64,000 nucleotides of DNA, from the NCBI GenBank assembly GCA_030538275.1, contig JAUNUH010000004.1:62001-126000 (forward strand). Reading direction: 5' to 3'. Positions 2,103-59,952 of the stretch are shown here, in pieces. A program made the position numbers and the translations under genes. The stretch comes from Flavobacteriaceae bacterium. Its GTDB lineage: Bacteria; Bacteroidota; Bacteroidia; Flavobacteriales; Weeksellaceae. Every line of letters begins with the position of its first letter. Within the stretch, counting starts at the first letter, position 1. Under the pieces are notes generated by a model. It had not been told where the DNA came from, searched no databases, and saw only the letters and a list, made by a program, of their open reading frames with translations.

Positions 2103-2542
2103 GATTTAGGAATTATTTTTTCGCGCATCAATACATCCACTATTTTTCCTCCTAGCCAAGAAAACGGAAAAAAGATTAAAAACAAACCTATTTCGTACCA
2201 AGTGGGATGATTGGTAAATATTATTATGTCCACAACAGCCATTAAAAAAAGAATAAGACCTACCAAAATGGCATAAGCTTGCCTTGCTTCTTTTACTAAA
2301 AAAGCTGTGAGAACTCCGCCTAGGCATGCGCCTACACCACAACTTATGAGCAATGCAATAAAAAAATTGGTGGGTGCTTGTTTCAATACACTTTGCCAAT
2401 AGACGTACACATCACCTTTTTGAGATAGTACAATATTATCCAGTTCGTCAAACCATAATTTATTGGCTGTAATAGCAAGCGTAATTATCGTCATGGCCAA
2501 TGCCAAGCCTGCCAACACGGAAAAAGTATTTCGCACCCACAT
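2099..2542 (-). CDS. Four-helix integral membrane protein of unknown function
   Basis: A 147-residue protein with four predicted membrane segments (about residues 5-28, 57-84, 90-111 and 117-138) and no recognisable catalytic motif. The second segment is rich in small residues (GVGACLGG), which suggests tight helix packing. Its ATG overlaps the TGA of ridA upstream in a TGATG arrangement, so the two are almost certainly translationally coupled. It converges with the glycosyltransferase gene with a 4-base overlap. I do not recognise the family beyond 'small Bacteroidota membrane protein' and assign no function. Confidence 0.7.
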   Translation of the reverse strand: MWVRNTFSVLAGLALAMTIITLAITANKLWFDELDNIVLSQKGDVYVYWQSVLKQAPTNFFIALLISCGVGACLGGVLTAFLVKEARQAYAILVGLILFLMAVVDIIIFTNHPTWYEIGLFLIFFPFSWLGGKIVDVLMREKIIPKS

Positions 2543-2919
2543 CAGAGTACAGCAATCATAGAAATTTCTACTTGAACATCTTTAGGGAGTTTTGCTACTT
2601 GCACGGTTTCACGTGCTGGGTATTTCCCCTCTTTTAAGTAAGAGCCATAAACTTCGTTTACCAATGGAAAATCATCCATATTTTTCAAAAAAATAGTTGT
2701 TTTGACCACATTATCAAAGCTTGCTCCTGCCTCATGGAGTACAGCTGAGAGATTTTTCATGATTTGATGCGTTTCGTCACCTGCATCACCCGAAATCAAT
2801 TCTCTATTTTCAGGATTCAGGGCAATTTGTCCTGACAAAAACAACATATTATTCACCATAACCCCTTGACTATACGGCCCAATGGCTTGTGGTGCTTGAT
2901 TTGTATTGATATGTTTCAT
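2542..2919 (-). CDS. ridA: RidA family enamine/imine deaminase
   Basis: A 125-residue protein of normal length for the RidA (YjgF/YER057c) family, which hydrolyses the reactive enamine/imine intermediates released by PLP enzymes such as threonine dehydratase. Signatures are QAPQAIGPYSQ near the start, LFLSGQIALNP, a TTIFLKNMDDF strand and YPARETVQVAKLP, which holds the conserved Arg of the substrate pocket, followed by VQVEI. It is cytosolic and normally trimeric. The downstream membrane-protein gene starts on its stop codon. lptD lies 11 bases away (convergent end to upstream start on the same strand), so the three minus-strand genes may form one transcript. Confidence 0.93.
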   Translation of the reverse strand: MKHINTNQAPQAIGPYSQGVMVNNMLFLSGQIALNPENRELISGDAGDETHQIMKNLSAVLHEAGASFDNVVKTTIFLKNMDDFPLVNEVYGSYLKEGKYPARETVQVAKLPKDVQVEISMIAVL

Positions 2920-2930
2920 TTGTAATTAAA

Positions 2931-5558
2931 TTAAAAATTAGTTCTGTTTCTGAATTCCCGTTCTTCGTATTTTACAGCGTCGCGCAAGAAATTAGCCTTG
3001 ATCCCTATGAAAAAATTCCAAGTTTTATAATCTCCAAAGGGATTCAGACTGAAATCAATTACGAAACTACGCAAATCTCTGGAAAAAGTGAAATAAGTTC
3101 CTGCAAAATCCATGGCTTGCAAGTCTATAGAAGTTCTTCCGCTGAAGGCCCAATGAGGTGTAGGTGAAATGCTCCCCACCAAACCTACGGTCGTTGTATT
3201 GGTAGCCTCCTGCCTCAAATTCAAGCTACGGTTGTAGCTGAAATCAACTGCCAAACGCCAAGGTGTCAAAAACTTAGCATAATTATTTTCATCAAAATAA
3301 TAATCTTCATATCGAATTCTACCACGAGTATCATATTTCATTTCTCTCTTACCGAATAAATCTTCTGTAAGATTATAATTGAGTCGAATGCCCATATTGG
3401 TGAATCGTGGCGCGCCTATTTTGTCAATTTTTATACCATTGGGGTAGGTATCATTTATCAAAGTTTGATACGGATCTATAGTTGCTCGGAAATTAATTCC
3501 CATTTTATTTTGAAACAAACTGGTTCTACCCGAAATATTTATTGGACTGAGTTTCAAACTATCTGCTGCAAAATTATAACTACCAGAAATATTTAAACTT
3601 TCAAATATTTTAATTTTTTGAACACCCAAAGAATCATTTCGGCTTCTTACTTTCATTTCTAAATTATTATTAATTCCAAAATTCAAACTTTGAGAAAGTC
3701 CACGGCTTGGCGACCCATAAACACCTTCTTCGAAAATGGAATAAAACACCTCACGCCCATCTTCGGTAAAATAAGAATCGTAATATCCCCAAAAATCAGT
3801 ACCAAAATCTGGTCGATAGCTAAATCCTATTCGAGGAGAAATCATATGTCGCAATGCTTTGATTTTTTTGTCATCATCTATGGTCCCAAAATTCCACGTT
3901 CCATATAATGTCGTCTGTAAAGAGGTTCCCACATTGAAGGTACGGTAAGAATCAAATCCATTGTTTTGAATGGTATTTACCTGTTGACTATTGTCGTCAT
4001 AATATCGCTGTATGGTCTGCAAAGTCCAGGTTTCGTCATATGCAGCATTAAAACTTAACGGAAAATATCTGCCAATTGTAGTACCCGTATTAAAGTTGAA
4101 TCGATGTTGCGCTCCATTTTTCATATCGTCGAACATACGTTCTGTAAATACATCATCGTCTGTGGTATAAATGATATTTTGCAGATTAAAACCATAATTC
4201 ATTCCCATGCTTTGCAACAATCCTTTTTTACTGCCAGATTTAGGTGCAAAAGGATAAATAGTGCTCATATTCACCGTGAGTTGAGGCAGATTGAAAGTGG
4301 CTTTACCCAAATCATTTGAGTTGTTATTGGTATTTTGACTGTGGGTAAGCGTCAATGAGGCCGTAAAAGGGGCGTTCGGGAAAGTTTTGGTAAGTGAGAT
4401 TGAAGAATTCACATTATTTTGTAAATAATTTCCTGATGAAATTCCATAATTACTAATTCCTTGTCTGAAGAATTGTGCGCTTTGAAAATTAACCCCTGCA
4501 CTGAAAATTAAATTCGGATTTGCTTTTGGATCTTGTCTATGATTCCAAGCCAATCTATAATTGGTAGATTTGTTATAAGAAGACAAACCTTTAATACCTG
4601 TAATTCTTTTTTCCCAATCAAAATTAAATCCTCCAGAAAATCGATATCTTTTCAAATAGGTTGAAATGGCATGCAATCCTAGACTACCACGAGTATAGAC
4701 GTCACCTGTGATGGCCAAATCCAAATAATCACCAAATGGAATATAAAAACCAGCACCTTGTAAATAGAAACCTACCTCTTCTCTTTCACCAAAGCTAGGC
4801 AACAAAATACCAGCACTTCTACTATCACCCATGGGCAAAAAAGCAAAGGGTAATGCCAAAGGGGTTGTTACTTCGTGAATTTTCATTACAATGGGTCCGG
4901 TAATTACCTTCCGGTCTTTGCCCTGCAAATATTTGGCAACTTCGGTTTGTAGATAATAATCTGCAATTGAATCTTTTCTCTGGATAAAATAGGTATCTGT
5001 CGTGTAGCCTACCTTTCGCATTCCCGATATGGAATCATTATACTGCTTCACAACTCCAGCAATAACGACACCTTGGTCAGACCCCATACTTTCTTCTGTT
5101 CTCACATTAAAAGCCTTTCCTTGCCGGGTATTTATATTTATCGTAAAGCTATGATACTCAATTTCTTTATTCCCCTGTTTGACTTTGGCGGGCTCGGTAA
5201 TTCTACCCAAGGAATCTTCTTTTCCCACGGCATATACATCCCCAGTTTGCCAATTGATATCGATATAATCTGCCTCAATTTGCAAATCAAGGTATTTTAC
5301 AACAGCCTCTGTTACCAAATAGGTGTGTTGATTTTTATAATCGTGAAACTGATCATAGGAAACATAATCTACAATATCCTGTAACTTTTCCTTTCTTTGA
5401 ATAGTGTCATTTGTATTTATTACATTTAGCCTCTGAATATTTGTAATAGAGTCCATTTGATAAATATTAATACTATCATTTCCAATTTGTGCTACCACAA
5501 TGTTGAAAAATAGTAGAAAAAATATACGAAGAGTAGTATTAAATACGTTAAATGCCAA
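2931..5558 (-). CDS. lptD: LPS-assembly outer membrane protein LptD (Bacteroidota type)
   Basis: An outer-membrane beta-barrel of about 875 residues. The N-terminal hydrophobic segment (LRIFFLLFFNIVVAQ) acts as signal peptide. It is followed by an OstA/LptA-like jellyroll region (strands around VTEAVVKYLDLQIEADYI) and the long barrel, which begins near FAFLPMGDSRSAGILLPSFG, a conserved LptD stretch, and ends with alternating strands up to the C-terminal aromatic residue. It should insert lipopolysaccharide in the outer leaflet. The frame extends to a TTG at 5597, but that codon lies inside a TATTTTTG -7 box, so I place the start at the TTG at 5558. No ATG occurs before the signal segment. The gene is divergent from the amidase gene. 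Confidence 0.9.
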   Translation of the reverse strand: MAFNVFNTTLRIFFLLFFNIVVAQIGNDSINIYQMDSITNIQRLNVINTNDTIQRKEKLQDIVDYVSYDQFHDYKNQHTYLVTEAVVKYLDLQIEADYIDINWQTGDVYAVGKEDSLGRITEPAKVKQGNKEIEYHSFTININTRQGKAFNVRTEESMGSDQGVVIAGVVKQYNDSISGMRKVGYTTDTYFIQRKDSIADYYLQTEVAKYLQGKDRKVITGPIVMKIHEVTTPLALPFAFLPMGDSRSAGILLPSFGEREEVGFYLQGAGFYIPFGDYLDLAITGDVYTRGSLGLHAISTYLKRYRFSGGFNFDWEKRITGIKGLSSYNKSTNYRLAWNHRQDPKANPNLIFSAGVNFQSAQFFRQGISNYGISSGNYLQNNVNSSISLTKTFPNAPFTASLTLTHSQNTNNNSNDLGKATFNLPQLTVNMSTIYPFAPKSGSKKGLLQSMGMNYGFNLQNIIYTTDDDVFTERMFDDMKNGAQHRFNFNTGTTIGRYFPLSFNAAYDETWTLQTIQRYYDDNSQQVNTIQNNGFDSYRTFNVGTSLQTTLYGTWNFGTIDDDKKIKALRHMISPRIGFSYRPDFGTDFWGYYDSYFTEDGREVFYSIFEEGVYGSPSRGLSQSLNFGINNNLEMKVRSRNDSLGVQKIKIFESLNISGSYNFAADSLKLSPINISGRTSLFQNKMGINFRATIDPYQTLINDTYPNGIKIDKIGAPRFTNMGIRLNYNLTEDLFGKREMKYDTRGRIRYEDYYFDENNYAKFLTPWRLAVDFSYNRSLNLRQEATNTTTVGLVGSISPTPHWAFSGRTSIDLQAMDFAGTYFTFSRDLRSFVIDFSLNPFGDYKTWNFFIGIKANFLRDAVKYEEREFRNRTNF

Positions 5559-34616: not shown

Positions 34617-35315
34617 TTAATTCCTATCAATAACCTGATATAATTCAAAATTAAGAATTACAGAAGTATCTGGTCCAAATCCAAATGTATTGCGATCACG
34701 TCCAAAGACCAAGCGACTGGGAACTACTATAACACCTTGAAAATCAACTGCAGGCAAATCCAAAGCAGATCTCCCCGTAGCCTGGAAATGCTTCAAACCA
34801 TCTTGCACACCTTCCATTTCGTACCATTCTGCACGATTATCATTGGTTGAATTTCGATGATGATAAAATGAAGGATCCCATATCGGATATCCAGTTGTAT
34901 TAATAGTAGAACTGAAATTTACCGGCTCTGAATAATTGACAGAATCACCATTCTTTCTAGCATTATAATACAACAACTCATACTGAATCAATATACTATC
35001 ATTATCAGGATTTACCACAGACCGACCTTCTGCCAAATGACCTGGTCGTTTTACAAACCAATATCCAGCATTAGCACGTTCTGCGTTAGACATCAAAGAA
35101 GGCATAGCATCATCAGAGCTCACATCATCCCTGAATTTGGTGATTTTTCCTACTTCGTTAAAATAATGCTCATTCAAAAACTTCAAAATCGTTGCATCAT
35201 CCACTTGGTTTTGCTCCTCCTGCGGCAACAAATTATTCCCGTCATCATCATTTTTACAAGACGTAAATCCAATCAACAAAACAGAAAAAAACAATCCCAA
35301 ATATTTTAAATTCAT
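34617..35315 (-). CDS. FKBP-like peptidyl-prolyl isomerase lipoprotein
   Basis: A 232-residue lipoprotein: signal segment LKYLGLFFSVLLIGFTSC with lipobox Cys, then an acidic Asn/Asp linker. The C-terminal region resembles an FKBP-type PPIase (EWYEMEGVQDGLKHFQ, then GVIVVPSRLVFG and the final strand SVILNFELYQVID), the place where FKBPs have the W-x-x-G-L and I-P-x-x-L-A-Y-G elements. Several active-site aromatics differ, so catalysis is uncertain. It is probably anchored to the outer membrane facing the periplasm. The frame extends to 35426, but ATG 35315 begins the signal peptide. It lies 32 bases upstream (5'... downstream in transcription) of mnmE's start region on the same strand. Confidence 0.72.
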   Translation of the reverse strand: MNLKYLGLFFSVLLIGFTSCKNDDDGNNLLPQEEQNQVDDATILKFLNEHYFNEVGKITKFRDDVSSDDAMPSLMSNAERANAGYWFVKRPGHLAEGRSVVNPDNDSILIQYELLYYNARKNGDSVNYSEPVNFSSTINTTGYPIWDPSFYHHRNSTNDNRAEWYEMEGVQDGLKHFQATGRSALDLPAVDFQGVIVVPSRLVFGRDRNTFGFGPDTSVILNFELYQVIDRN

Positions 35316-35453
35316 ATTTACCAAATTAAAAGTTGTGCAAGATACAAAGATTATTATTTCTTGACGAAAATCCCAAGCCATTGGTTGCTTATTTTGATTT
35401 GGAATTAATGTTTTCCCGCGTGTCAACTCATCCCTTCGAGTTTATATTCCGTT

Positions 35454-35539
35454 GGCGGGACCGGGAAATGATGGGCTGCTTGCCTTCCCTAAAAGGCCAA
35501 GGCTAAGGCCGCGGACCGCTAGCCCATCATTCCCTAAAC
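35454..35539 (+). repeat. Dispersed structured repeat, copy A (about 86 bp)
   Basis: A GC-rich island in AT-rich DNA. It runs from GGCGGGACCGGGAAATG to TTCCCTAAAC. GGGAAATGATGGGCT (35463-35477) pairs with AGCCCATCATTCCC (35521-35534), and the middle holds TTGCCTTCC and GGCCGCGGAC. The second copy lies inverted at 58821-58905 with the same ends and middle but a different, still complementary stem. The flanking region 35316-35633 holds no gene. Confidence 0.7.
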
Positions 35540-35633
35540 ATGGATAAAATCACCCTTCGTATTTTATCAAAATTATACATTCAATTCCTAGGTAAATTAA
35601 GGCACAACCTAGCAAAAATAGTATATTTACCGC

Positions 35634-57913: not shown

Positions 57914-57972
57914 TTCATACTGTTTTAATATGAATTAAAATTAAAGTAAATTTGCTGGATTTTTCTATTAAA

Positions 57973-58686
57973 ATGCTGAAAATATTCGGTTTTGTAGGTA
58001 TGTTTTTTTCTCTGTTGCTATTCGGACAAAATTCGATTGAGCACCAACAACTTGTATGGTATGGATATAATCTAAATCTAGAAACCAAAAATCAAATCAG
58101 CATTAAGCAAGAAATTGAAAATCGCTCATTTTTATCACCTTGGAGACAGAATATTCTATTATCTACAACACAAGTCGAAAAGAATTTGGGCTCTAATTGG
58201 AAGGCAGCAGCAGGTTTCACGTATTTTTTGCAAACTATTCATCCGCCAAATAGCCATTCCGTCAATCGTACAGAGTTGCGTCCCCAATTTAGCTTTTCTT
58301 ACAAACAAATTTTACATGAAAATTGGCAATTGAACCATAGATATCAAGGAGAATTGAGATGGATTGAAAATAATTTGAATGATATAGCGTTGACTGCGTT
58401 ACGGTTACGTTATAGAATTCAGTTGCAGCATCAATTATCAGAAAAATTGAAATTAAAATTATTTGAGGAGATTCATATCAATACTTTCAAGAATTCATCA
58501 TTGGCAATTTTTGATCAAAACCGGGCGGGAATTGCATTTCAATATTCTTTAATGCCCAGTCTGGATTTGGAATTAGGTTATTTAAATTGGTATCAACAAC
58601 GCAATATAATGGGCGAATTTTATGATCGTAATATTTTGAGATTTACAATTTATCATCAAATTGATTTGGGTTCTAAAGCGGAGTAA
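57973..58686 (+). CDS. DUF2490 outer-membrane-type protein
   Basis: A 237-residue exported protein. Signal MLKIFGFVGMFFSLLLFGQ; the rest consists of alternating amphipathic strands (QLVWYGYNLNLET, YRIQLQHQLSEKLKLKLFEE, part: RIQLQHQLSEKLKLK, DLELGYLNWYQQ) and ends in ILRFTIYHQIDL, typical of DUF2490 barrels of the outer membrane. Function unknown. ATG 57973 is preferred over an in-frame TTG at 57952. It stands apart from the operon upstream by about 60 bases. Confidence 0.8.
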   Translation: MLKIFGFVGMFFSLLLFGQNSIEHQQLVWYGYNLNLETKNQISIKQEIENRSFLSPWRQNILLSTTQVEKNLGSNWKAAAGFTYFLQTIHPPNSHSVNRTELRPQFSFSYKQILHENWQLNHRYQGELRWIENNLNDIALTALRLRYRIQLQHQLSEKLKLKLFEEIHINTFKNSSLAIFDQNRAGIAFQYSLMPSLDLELGYLNWYQQRNIMGEFYDRNILRFTIYHQIDLGSKAE

Positions 58687-58820
58687 TTTTATATTGGGAT
58701 ATTTGATTTTATATTTTGATATAATTTTGATTTTACCTTAACTGAAATCAGAATTAAAACATTGATTTTCAATATTAATCACTAATTTTTCGTAAATCAA
58801 GAAACAGGAATTTTTTTCAT

Positions 58821-58905
58821 GTTTAGGGAAAAATTTGCTGTGCGTCCGCGGCCTTCAGCCCTGGCCCCAAAAGGAAGGCAAACGCAAATATTTCCCGTTC
58901 CCGCC
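58821..58905 (-). repeat. Dispersed structured repeat, copy B (about 85 bp)
   Basis: The reverse complement runs from GGCGGGAACGGGAAAT to TTCCCTAAAC and carries TTGCCTTCC and GGCCGCGGAC, as in copy A. Its stem GGGAAATATTTGC/GCAAATTTTTCCC differs in sequence from that of copy A but still pairs. It is the only feature in the 345-base gap 58687-59031. Confidence 0.7.
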
Positions 58906-59031
58906 ACGAAATGTAGTAGCTAGGTAAAATCTGAATCTGCGGGAAAACATTATTTCAAAAATATTTTCAATCTTCAACAATTGTGAATTTGCATGAAAAT
59001 TGCTGAAAAATGTTAAATTTTCTTTTAAAAA

Positions 59032-59952
59032 ATGGCATTTATCGACTATTATAAAATTTTGGGTGTAAGCAAAACCGCTACTGAAGCGGAAATTAAAAAA
59101 GCCTATCGCAAATTGGCGCGTAAACATCATCCAGATTTGAACCCGAATGACAAAGAAGCAGAGCAGCGTTTTCAACAGTTGAATGAGGCCAATGAGGTGT
59201 TGAGCGATGCAGCAAAGCGGAAGAAATATGATGAATATGGTGAAAATTGGAAACATGCAGATGAGTTGGAGCAGATGCGCAAGCAGCAACGACAATATCA
59301 GGGCGGTTCGTTTGGCGATGGCGGACAGGGGTGGTCTGAGGCTTACACCGGAAATTTTGACGAGGGGCAGTTTTCTGATTTATTTGGGGATTTATTTGGC
59401 AGCAGGTCGGGCGGATTTAGAAGTCAGAGAAATTCGGCCCGTTTTCGTGGACAAGATTTTCATGCCAGTCTTGAGTTGAATCTACGTCAGGCCGCAGAAA
59501 CGCATAAACAAACGCTCAACGTGAATGGAAAAAACATTCGAATCACCATTCCGGCGGGTGTGTATGAGGGGCAGGAAATCAAGTTGATGGGCCATGGTGG
59601 AGAAGGCGTAAATGGTGGTCCTAAGGGGGATTTGTATATAACTTTTAAAATTTTGCCTGATAGAGAATTCCGTCGTGATGGAGATAATTTGTATAAAACA
59701 GAAAAAATTAATTTGTACACAGCGGTTTTGGGAGGAGAAATTACTTTGAATACATTTGATGGACAGGTAAAGTTGAAAGTAAAACCTGGAACCCAAAATG
59801 CTACGAGAGTGAAATTGAGTGGAAAGGGTTTTCCCAAATATAAAAACGAGGGTCAATTTGGAGATTTATTTGTAACTTATGAAGTGTTGATTCCCACGTC
59901 TTTAACCGACAAACAGCGTGAATTATTTGAAGAATTATCAAAAACGAAATAA
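59032..59952 (+). CDS. cbpA: DnaJ-like co-chaperone CbpA
   Basis: A 306-residue type II J-protein. J domain ([24 protein letters not shown] at the usual place in RKHHPDLNP), a G/F-type linker with Gln/Gly, and the two C-terminal beta domains ([42 protein letters not shown]). No zinc region, which separates it from the DnaJ of this window. CbpA assists DnaK and binds curved DNA in E. coli. cbpM follows directly (no gap), and the regulator-partner pair confirms the call. Confidence 0.92.

Follow-up and report, generated by a model that had tools for sequence, protein, structure and literature searches.

A dispersed intergenic repeat of Profundicola with covarying helices around a conserved core

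The genome of a marine Profundicola bacterium (Weeksellaceae; G000, 2.49 Mb in 20 contigs) carries seven copies of an intergenic unit of 131–136 bp, which begins with ATGTT and ends with AACAT in the copy alignment and folds through three helices, one of which has arms that are nearly unrelated between copies. At a probability of about one half, we read it as a small non-autonomous mobile DNA element that is recognized mainly by its shape; a structured RNA family is the main rival. Sequence identity is the usual means of recognizing dispersed repeats in bacteria, and these can usually be linked to a transposase. In this family the pairing and a short core are kept while the arms and loops drift, so that repeat finding based on identity misses copies, and no known mobilizing enzyme is linked to the element.

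Copies in the window and in the genus

Two copies lie in the window, the 64,000-nucleotide stretch of DNA analyzed here. Copy A occupies 35408..35541 on the plus strand (134 bp) and copy B occupies 58819..58950 on the minus strand (132 bp). They match R1 with 122.8 and 121.9 bits, scores that define bounds only because both copies were among those on which R1 was trained. The preliminary description had placed both copies correctly while leaving out the 5' third (approximately 50 bp), and the end sequences and middle blocks it quoted as common to A and B are present in both. The 16-base GGCGGGANCGGGAAAT has just two mismatch-free occurrences in the window and four with up to three mismatches, a number reached by none of 100 shuffles. 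The G+C content is 0.54 in A and 0.48 in B, whereas their 120-base flanks have 0.28 and 0.22, respectively, and the window as a whole 0.338, in line with the excess noted earlier. The intergenic position was likewise borne out, each copy lying between larger ORFs. A TTG-started ORF (58855-59295) overlaps B and another (34617-35426) reaches to within 10 bases before A; both look spurious or over-extended.

A dispersed family had been proposed from A and B, and a search for all copies with a covariance model found seven in the genome (A and B, plus a single copy on each of contigs C2, C3, C4, C11, and C13) rather than a mere pair lacking covariation. Four more are present in P. chukchiensis KMM 9724 (G001), one of two congeners compared. 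Beyond the seven, nothing in the genome reached E ≤ 0.05, and the model found no full-type copy in the other congener, a third Profundicola genome (G002). The core pattern (TGCCTTCC, spacer, GGCC, spacer, GGCCGCGGAC) matched seven times in G000, three times in G001, and not at all in G002, and its backwards control gave no match in any of the three. The core is retained in 7/7 own-genome copies; the fourth P. chukchiensis copy (L094) has one change within a core block. A 22-base match, L007/L010, was discarded as chance. Among 31 stretches of the contig collection with the core pattern, helices were found in only three, all from P. chukchiensis; the remaining 28 and two viral stretches were judged by eye to be without them.

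Fold, covariation and the nature of the folded strand

Three helices are supported: P1 (ATGTTT/AAACAT), which closes the unit, P2 (TCCCGC/GCGGGA), and P3, whose arms vary around a core that is nearly invariant between copies. On the plus strand of copy A, the P1 5' arm ATGTTT (35408..35413; paired 10/10) meets AAACAT at 35536..35541, the 3' arm given by the pairing test of the aligned copies. The P2 5' arm TCCCGC (35414..35419) is separated from its partner GCGGGA (35455-35460) by a variable loop of 35 nt (35420..35454), as seen in the copy alignment. The P3 arms GGGAAATGATGGGCTGCT (35463..35480) and CGCTAGCCCATCATTCCC (35517..35534; own duplex −26.0 kcal/mol) enclose the conserved core TGCCTTCC..GGCC..AAGGCCGCGGAC (35481..35516), delimited by the core pattern and the alignment. 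In copy B, on the minus strand, the P3 5' arm GGGAAATATTTGCGTT (58881..58896; own duplex −15.0 kcal/mol) and 3' arm GCACAGCAAATTTTTCCC (58826..58843, from the arm-swap test) flank a core located by its pattern at 58844..58880.

The claim of a selected stem with compensating changes was upheld in 10 of the 11 Profundicola copies (L094 was left out). All 16 tested pairs are standard in every copy (160/160 cells), a percentage biased upward because the structure was derived from the same 10 copies, and 6/16 pairs have changed on both sides. P1 of the C3 copy reads ATGTTG/CAACAT, a T-A to G-C change on both sides, and P2 in three copies reads TCGCGC/GCGCGA, a C-G to G-C change on both sides. Covariation is strong, scoring 0.36 where shuffles average 0.145 (0/500 as high) and slid partners give 0.02–0.13; a measure of further pair types was not above shuffles in these 10 copies (498/500 equally high). 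That the stem arms differ and still pair each with its own partner was confirmed by duplex energies after arm swapping, an independent test. The mean P3 duplex energy over the seven own-genome copies is −18.2 kcal/mol for own arms and −8.8 kcal/mol for swapped arms, and only one of 5040 arm permutations, the identity, reaches the own total. Three P. chukchiensis copies in the same table add little, since their arms are near-identical. An outer stem, P0, is weak in the own-genome copies (96/5040 permutations equally good), and a putative core hairpin, P4 (CCTT with AAGG/GGGG), was spotted by eye. A coding reading was dropped: the own-genome copies, by eye, open a small ORF from ATG with C-terminal frames that disagree, and the P. 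chukchiensis copies hit early stops.

Covariation of paired positions raises the possibility that the copies are structured small RNA genes, every one of them transcribed and functional, which would explain why the core is kept while the arms drift. The nearly invariant core amid widely diverged arms and loops fits selection on each copy. Its retention in all seven own-genome copies, the lack of any further copy at E ≤ 0.05, and a plus strand of copy A that folds better than 200/200 shuffles also speak for such genes. However, the two strands fold about equally (no preference among 12 Profundicola-type elements, p = 0.85), copy B taken by itself gives no significant fold (z −1.44, 15/200 shuffles as good), the copies are off orthologous positions where compared, and no Rfam family matches. 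In a wider set of 37 elements folding is slightly better on the minus strand (p = 0.04), which is possibly compatible with a transcribed minus strand. P3 is also almost devoid of G-T pairs: on the plus strand, the seven own-genome copies have 99 Watson-Crick and no G-T pairs, and nine copies have 120 and two, respectively, while the helices of the 10 aligned copies contain one G-T cell in 160. As a general rule, RNA helices with compensating changes are richer in wobble pairs. Their scarcity here leans toward DNA rather than RNA as the substrate without proving it, and we regard the small RNA genes as possible but not probable.

Genomic sites and gene context

The sites compared between genomes were those of A, B, C4, and one P. 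chukchiensis copy. For site A, the homologs of both flanking genes (query 1415-2160 and 2423-3503) lie on one G001 contig with the element absent, and the interval of 262 bases in the own genome is 158 bases there. At site B, both congeners have the DnaJ gene and lack the element. The DUF2490 gene (57952-58686) that adjoins copy B is missing together with it from the homologous place in both. An empty site may equally reflect loss, as at B, where the DUF2490 gene is missing too. The gene beside the P. chukchiensis copy has its G000 homolog on C9, a contig without any copy, and the synteny search for the C4 site gave none. Among related genomes, the element thus seems to be gained and lost.

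The copies use both strands and stand in every arrangement to their genes: of the seven in the genome, two lie between divergent genes, one between convergent genes, two along co-directional genes, and two against them. This variety speaks against a cis-acting mRNA element, that is, a terminator, antiterminator, or leader. In addition, the plus-strand flanks tend to be T-rich before and A-rich after the element, so that neither strand has a downstream T-run, and the scanned neighbor genes share no function that we could find. Some bias is seen in the wider set that carries the CTTGAT box described below, where 31 co-directional copies point against the genes beside them and 16 in the direction of those genes, with 3 divergent, 10 convergent, and 20/80 unresolved, although these copies are non-independent. 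A cis-acting role is unlikely on balance.

The mixed gene orientation, together with variable helices that contain almost no G-T pairs, makes a shape-recognized mobile DNA element the best reading, though not a proven one. In the proposed mechanism, an exposed strand would fold three ways, with P1 closing P2 and P3 and the asymmetric conserved core near the tip of P3, and a protein encoded elsewhere would recognize the core and the junction, such that the arms need only pair. The number of copies, their boundaries, the covariation, the intergenic positions on both strands, and the two sites that are empty in congeners are observed directly; mobility, the single-stranded DNA substrate, and the trans-acting protein are what we infer. 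Against mobile DNA, no transposase was found, none of the copies was observed in transit, the inverted match at the termini spans just 6 bp, and none of the 11 copies shows a consistent target-site duplication. Direct repeats of at least 4 bases near the ends are absent in 8/11 copies, with A/T-rich matches only in the other three, and the empty sites are too diverged for a base-exact junction.

Wider relatives, the CTTGAT box and known systems

In a family search of 296 genomes, the model matched five: G000, G001, G002, G030, and G003. The G003 match (28.9 bits, P2 pairs broken in three places) was discarded as chance, and the weak matches in G002 and G030 are convincing as true relatives. 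Those in G002 keep P1 and a P3 with a much shorter P2 and loop, indicating that the long loop is dispensable. A further module, the box, is a hairpin whose loop reads CTTGAT, with an A-rich stretch and then ATCAA(G) behind it, an arrangement capable of forming a pseudoknot. It precedes all four P. chukchiensis copies, two G002 relatives (one box degenerate), and the G030 copy, and is absent from 7/7 copies in G000. The box is found in 15/120 family genomes and, in a stricter form, in 17/247 Bacteroidota genomes (backwards control 0), and also on plasmids of Persicobacter and Aureibacter. On plasmids of Parabacteroides distasonis and the fusobacterium Ilyobacter polytropus, the loop and tail are jointly changed to CTTGAA/TTCAAG; family genome G132 has a third instance of CTTGAA. 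Across 48 distinct boxes, the hairpin arms form 9.19 pairs on average with their own partner and 7.53 when shuffled (0/2000 as high). Downstream of the box there is usually a stem around a lineage-specific domain, according to a minimum-energy partner search that had no shuffled control and chose an inner partner for the G001 copies. Similar hairpins with other loops occur in 20 stretches of the viral collection, and thus the box itself may be more general.

The element fits no catalogued family tested here. In a window scan, no Rfam 15 family reached its gathering score over the element, and the scanned copies had no sub-threshold match at E ≤ 5. Flavo-1 RNA, described in PMC9723704 as flavobacterial, with many copies and no consistent orientation to transcripts, resembles the element, which is likewise flavobacterial, multi-copy, and of mixed orientation. 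However, Flavo-1 (RF01705), a lead of the preliminary description, gave no covariance match over the element; a sub-threshold match (26.2 bits, cut-off 42) lies approximately 150 bases from a G002 relative, off the element.

The other lead, a RAYT-like transposase, found no support in G000, where Y1 transposases gave no match (the assembly being 95% complete). As a REP/REPIN moved by a RAYT (Y1) transposase, the element would be expected to be short, intergenic, multi-copy, and hairpin-forming with palindromic arms, as it is, and Y1 proteins are present in 4/8 genomes examined, G001 included. However, no Y1_Tnp match was found in G000, G002, G030, or the G067 genome with its 25 box copies, and the unit of 131–136 bp, with a three-way fold of three helices and a long conserved core, far exceeds the 20–40 bp given for REPs in PMC3733652. 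A REP origin is very improbable.

The element resembles MITEs in being short, dispersed, without evident coding capacity, and apparently absent from corresponding sites in relatives, but differs in its 6 bp terminal inverted match, its lack of target-site duplication, and its covarying internal arms. By definition, the terminal inverted repeats of MITEs measure at least some 10 bp. With integron attC sites, the element would share a folded single strand in which structure outweighs sequence. attC sites carry the boxes R''/R' (RYYYAAC/GTTRRRY) and go with an integron integrase; such core boxes were not seen by eye in the copies, and no cassette arrays surround them. An integron-like array in G067 was also rejected, since polysaccharide and other genes, rather than cassettes, lie between its dispersed boxes. 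Neither copy A nor L106 nor the Parabacteroides unit matched the phage collection, and the Ilyobacter unit did not match E. coli genomes. The literature searched, which included PMC2864571 and PMC9723704 but left out most subscription papers and preprints, yielded no description of either the element or the box, and a text search for box strings returned no paper.

The Profundicola element may belong, as one branch, to a larger family so far absent from catalogues; common ancestry with the other box-borne domains is suggested by the box they share but not demonstrated. A bolder proposal, which we hold as doubtful, is an unnamed mobile family spanning the phylum and defined by architecture, in which a 5' hairpin loop CTTGAW would pair with a downstream WTCAAG as a pseudoknot, a closing stem would surround interchangeable arms, and machinery other than RAYT would read the folded single-stranded DNA (or RNA), with a crossing into Fusobacteriota. 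If this pseudoknot-headed family is real, the intergenic DNA of Bacteroidota commonly contains an element missing from the catalogues, one on which the idea that folded DNA drives mobility could be tested.

Several observations were made alongside. The 25 exact box copies in G067 (Weeksellaceae; L128, L129, L130) are often in the same orientation around a polysaccharide biosynthesis cluster, and some of them are separated by only 200–400 bases. In L116 and L117, two 5' box modules stand in tandem, as by entry of one unit beside another or by duplication. P. chukchiensis has a second repeat, of the type GTCATTCTGAG..TGACTCAGAATCT, upstream of 3/4 copies (L018 8570-8640 and 11945-12015; L094). 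Four viral-collection stretches (L181, L184, L185, and L192) contain another dispersed folded unit, a hairpin TTACTTTTTTGAAAAAAAGTAACCAAAA followed by an AACTTTTG../..CAAAAGTT stem and then a T-rich/A-rich hairpin. Finally, a SAM-II riboswitch (RF01726, 68.9 bits) lies at L087 1944-2002, in a Weeksellaceae genome.
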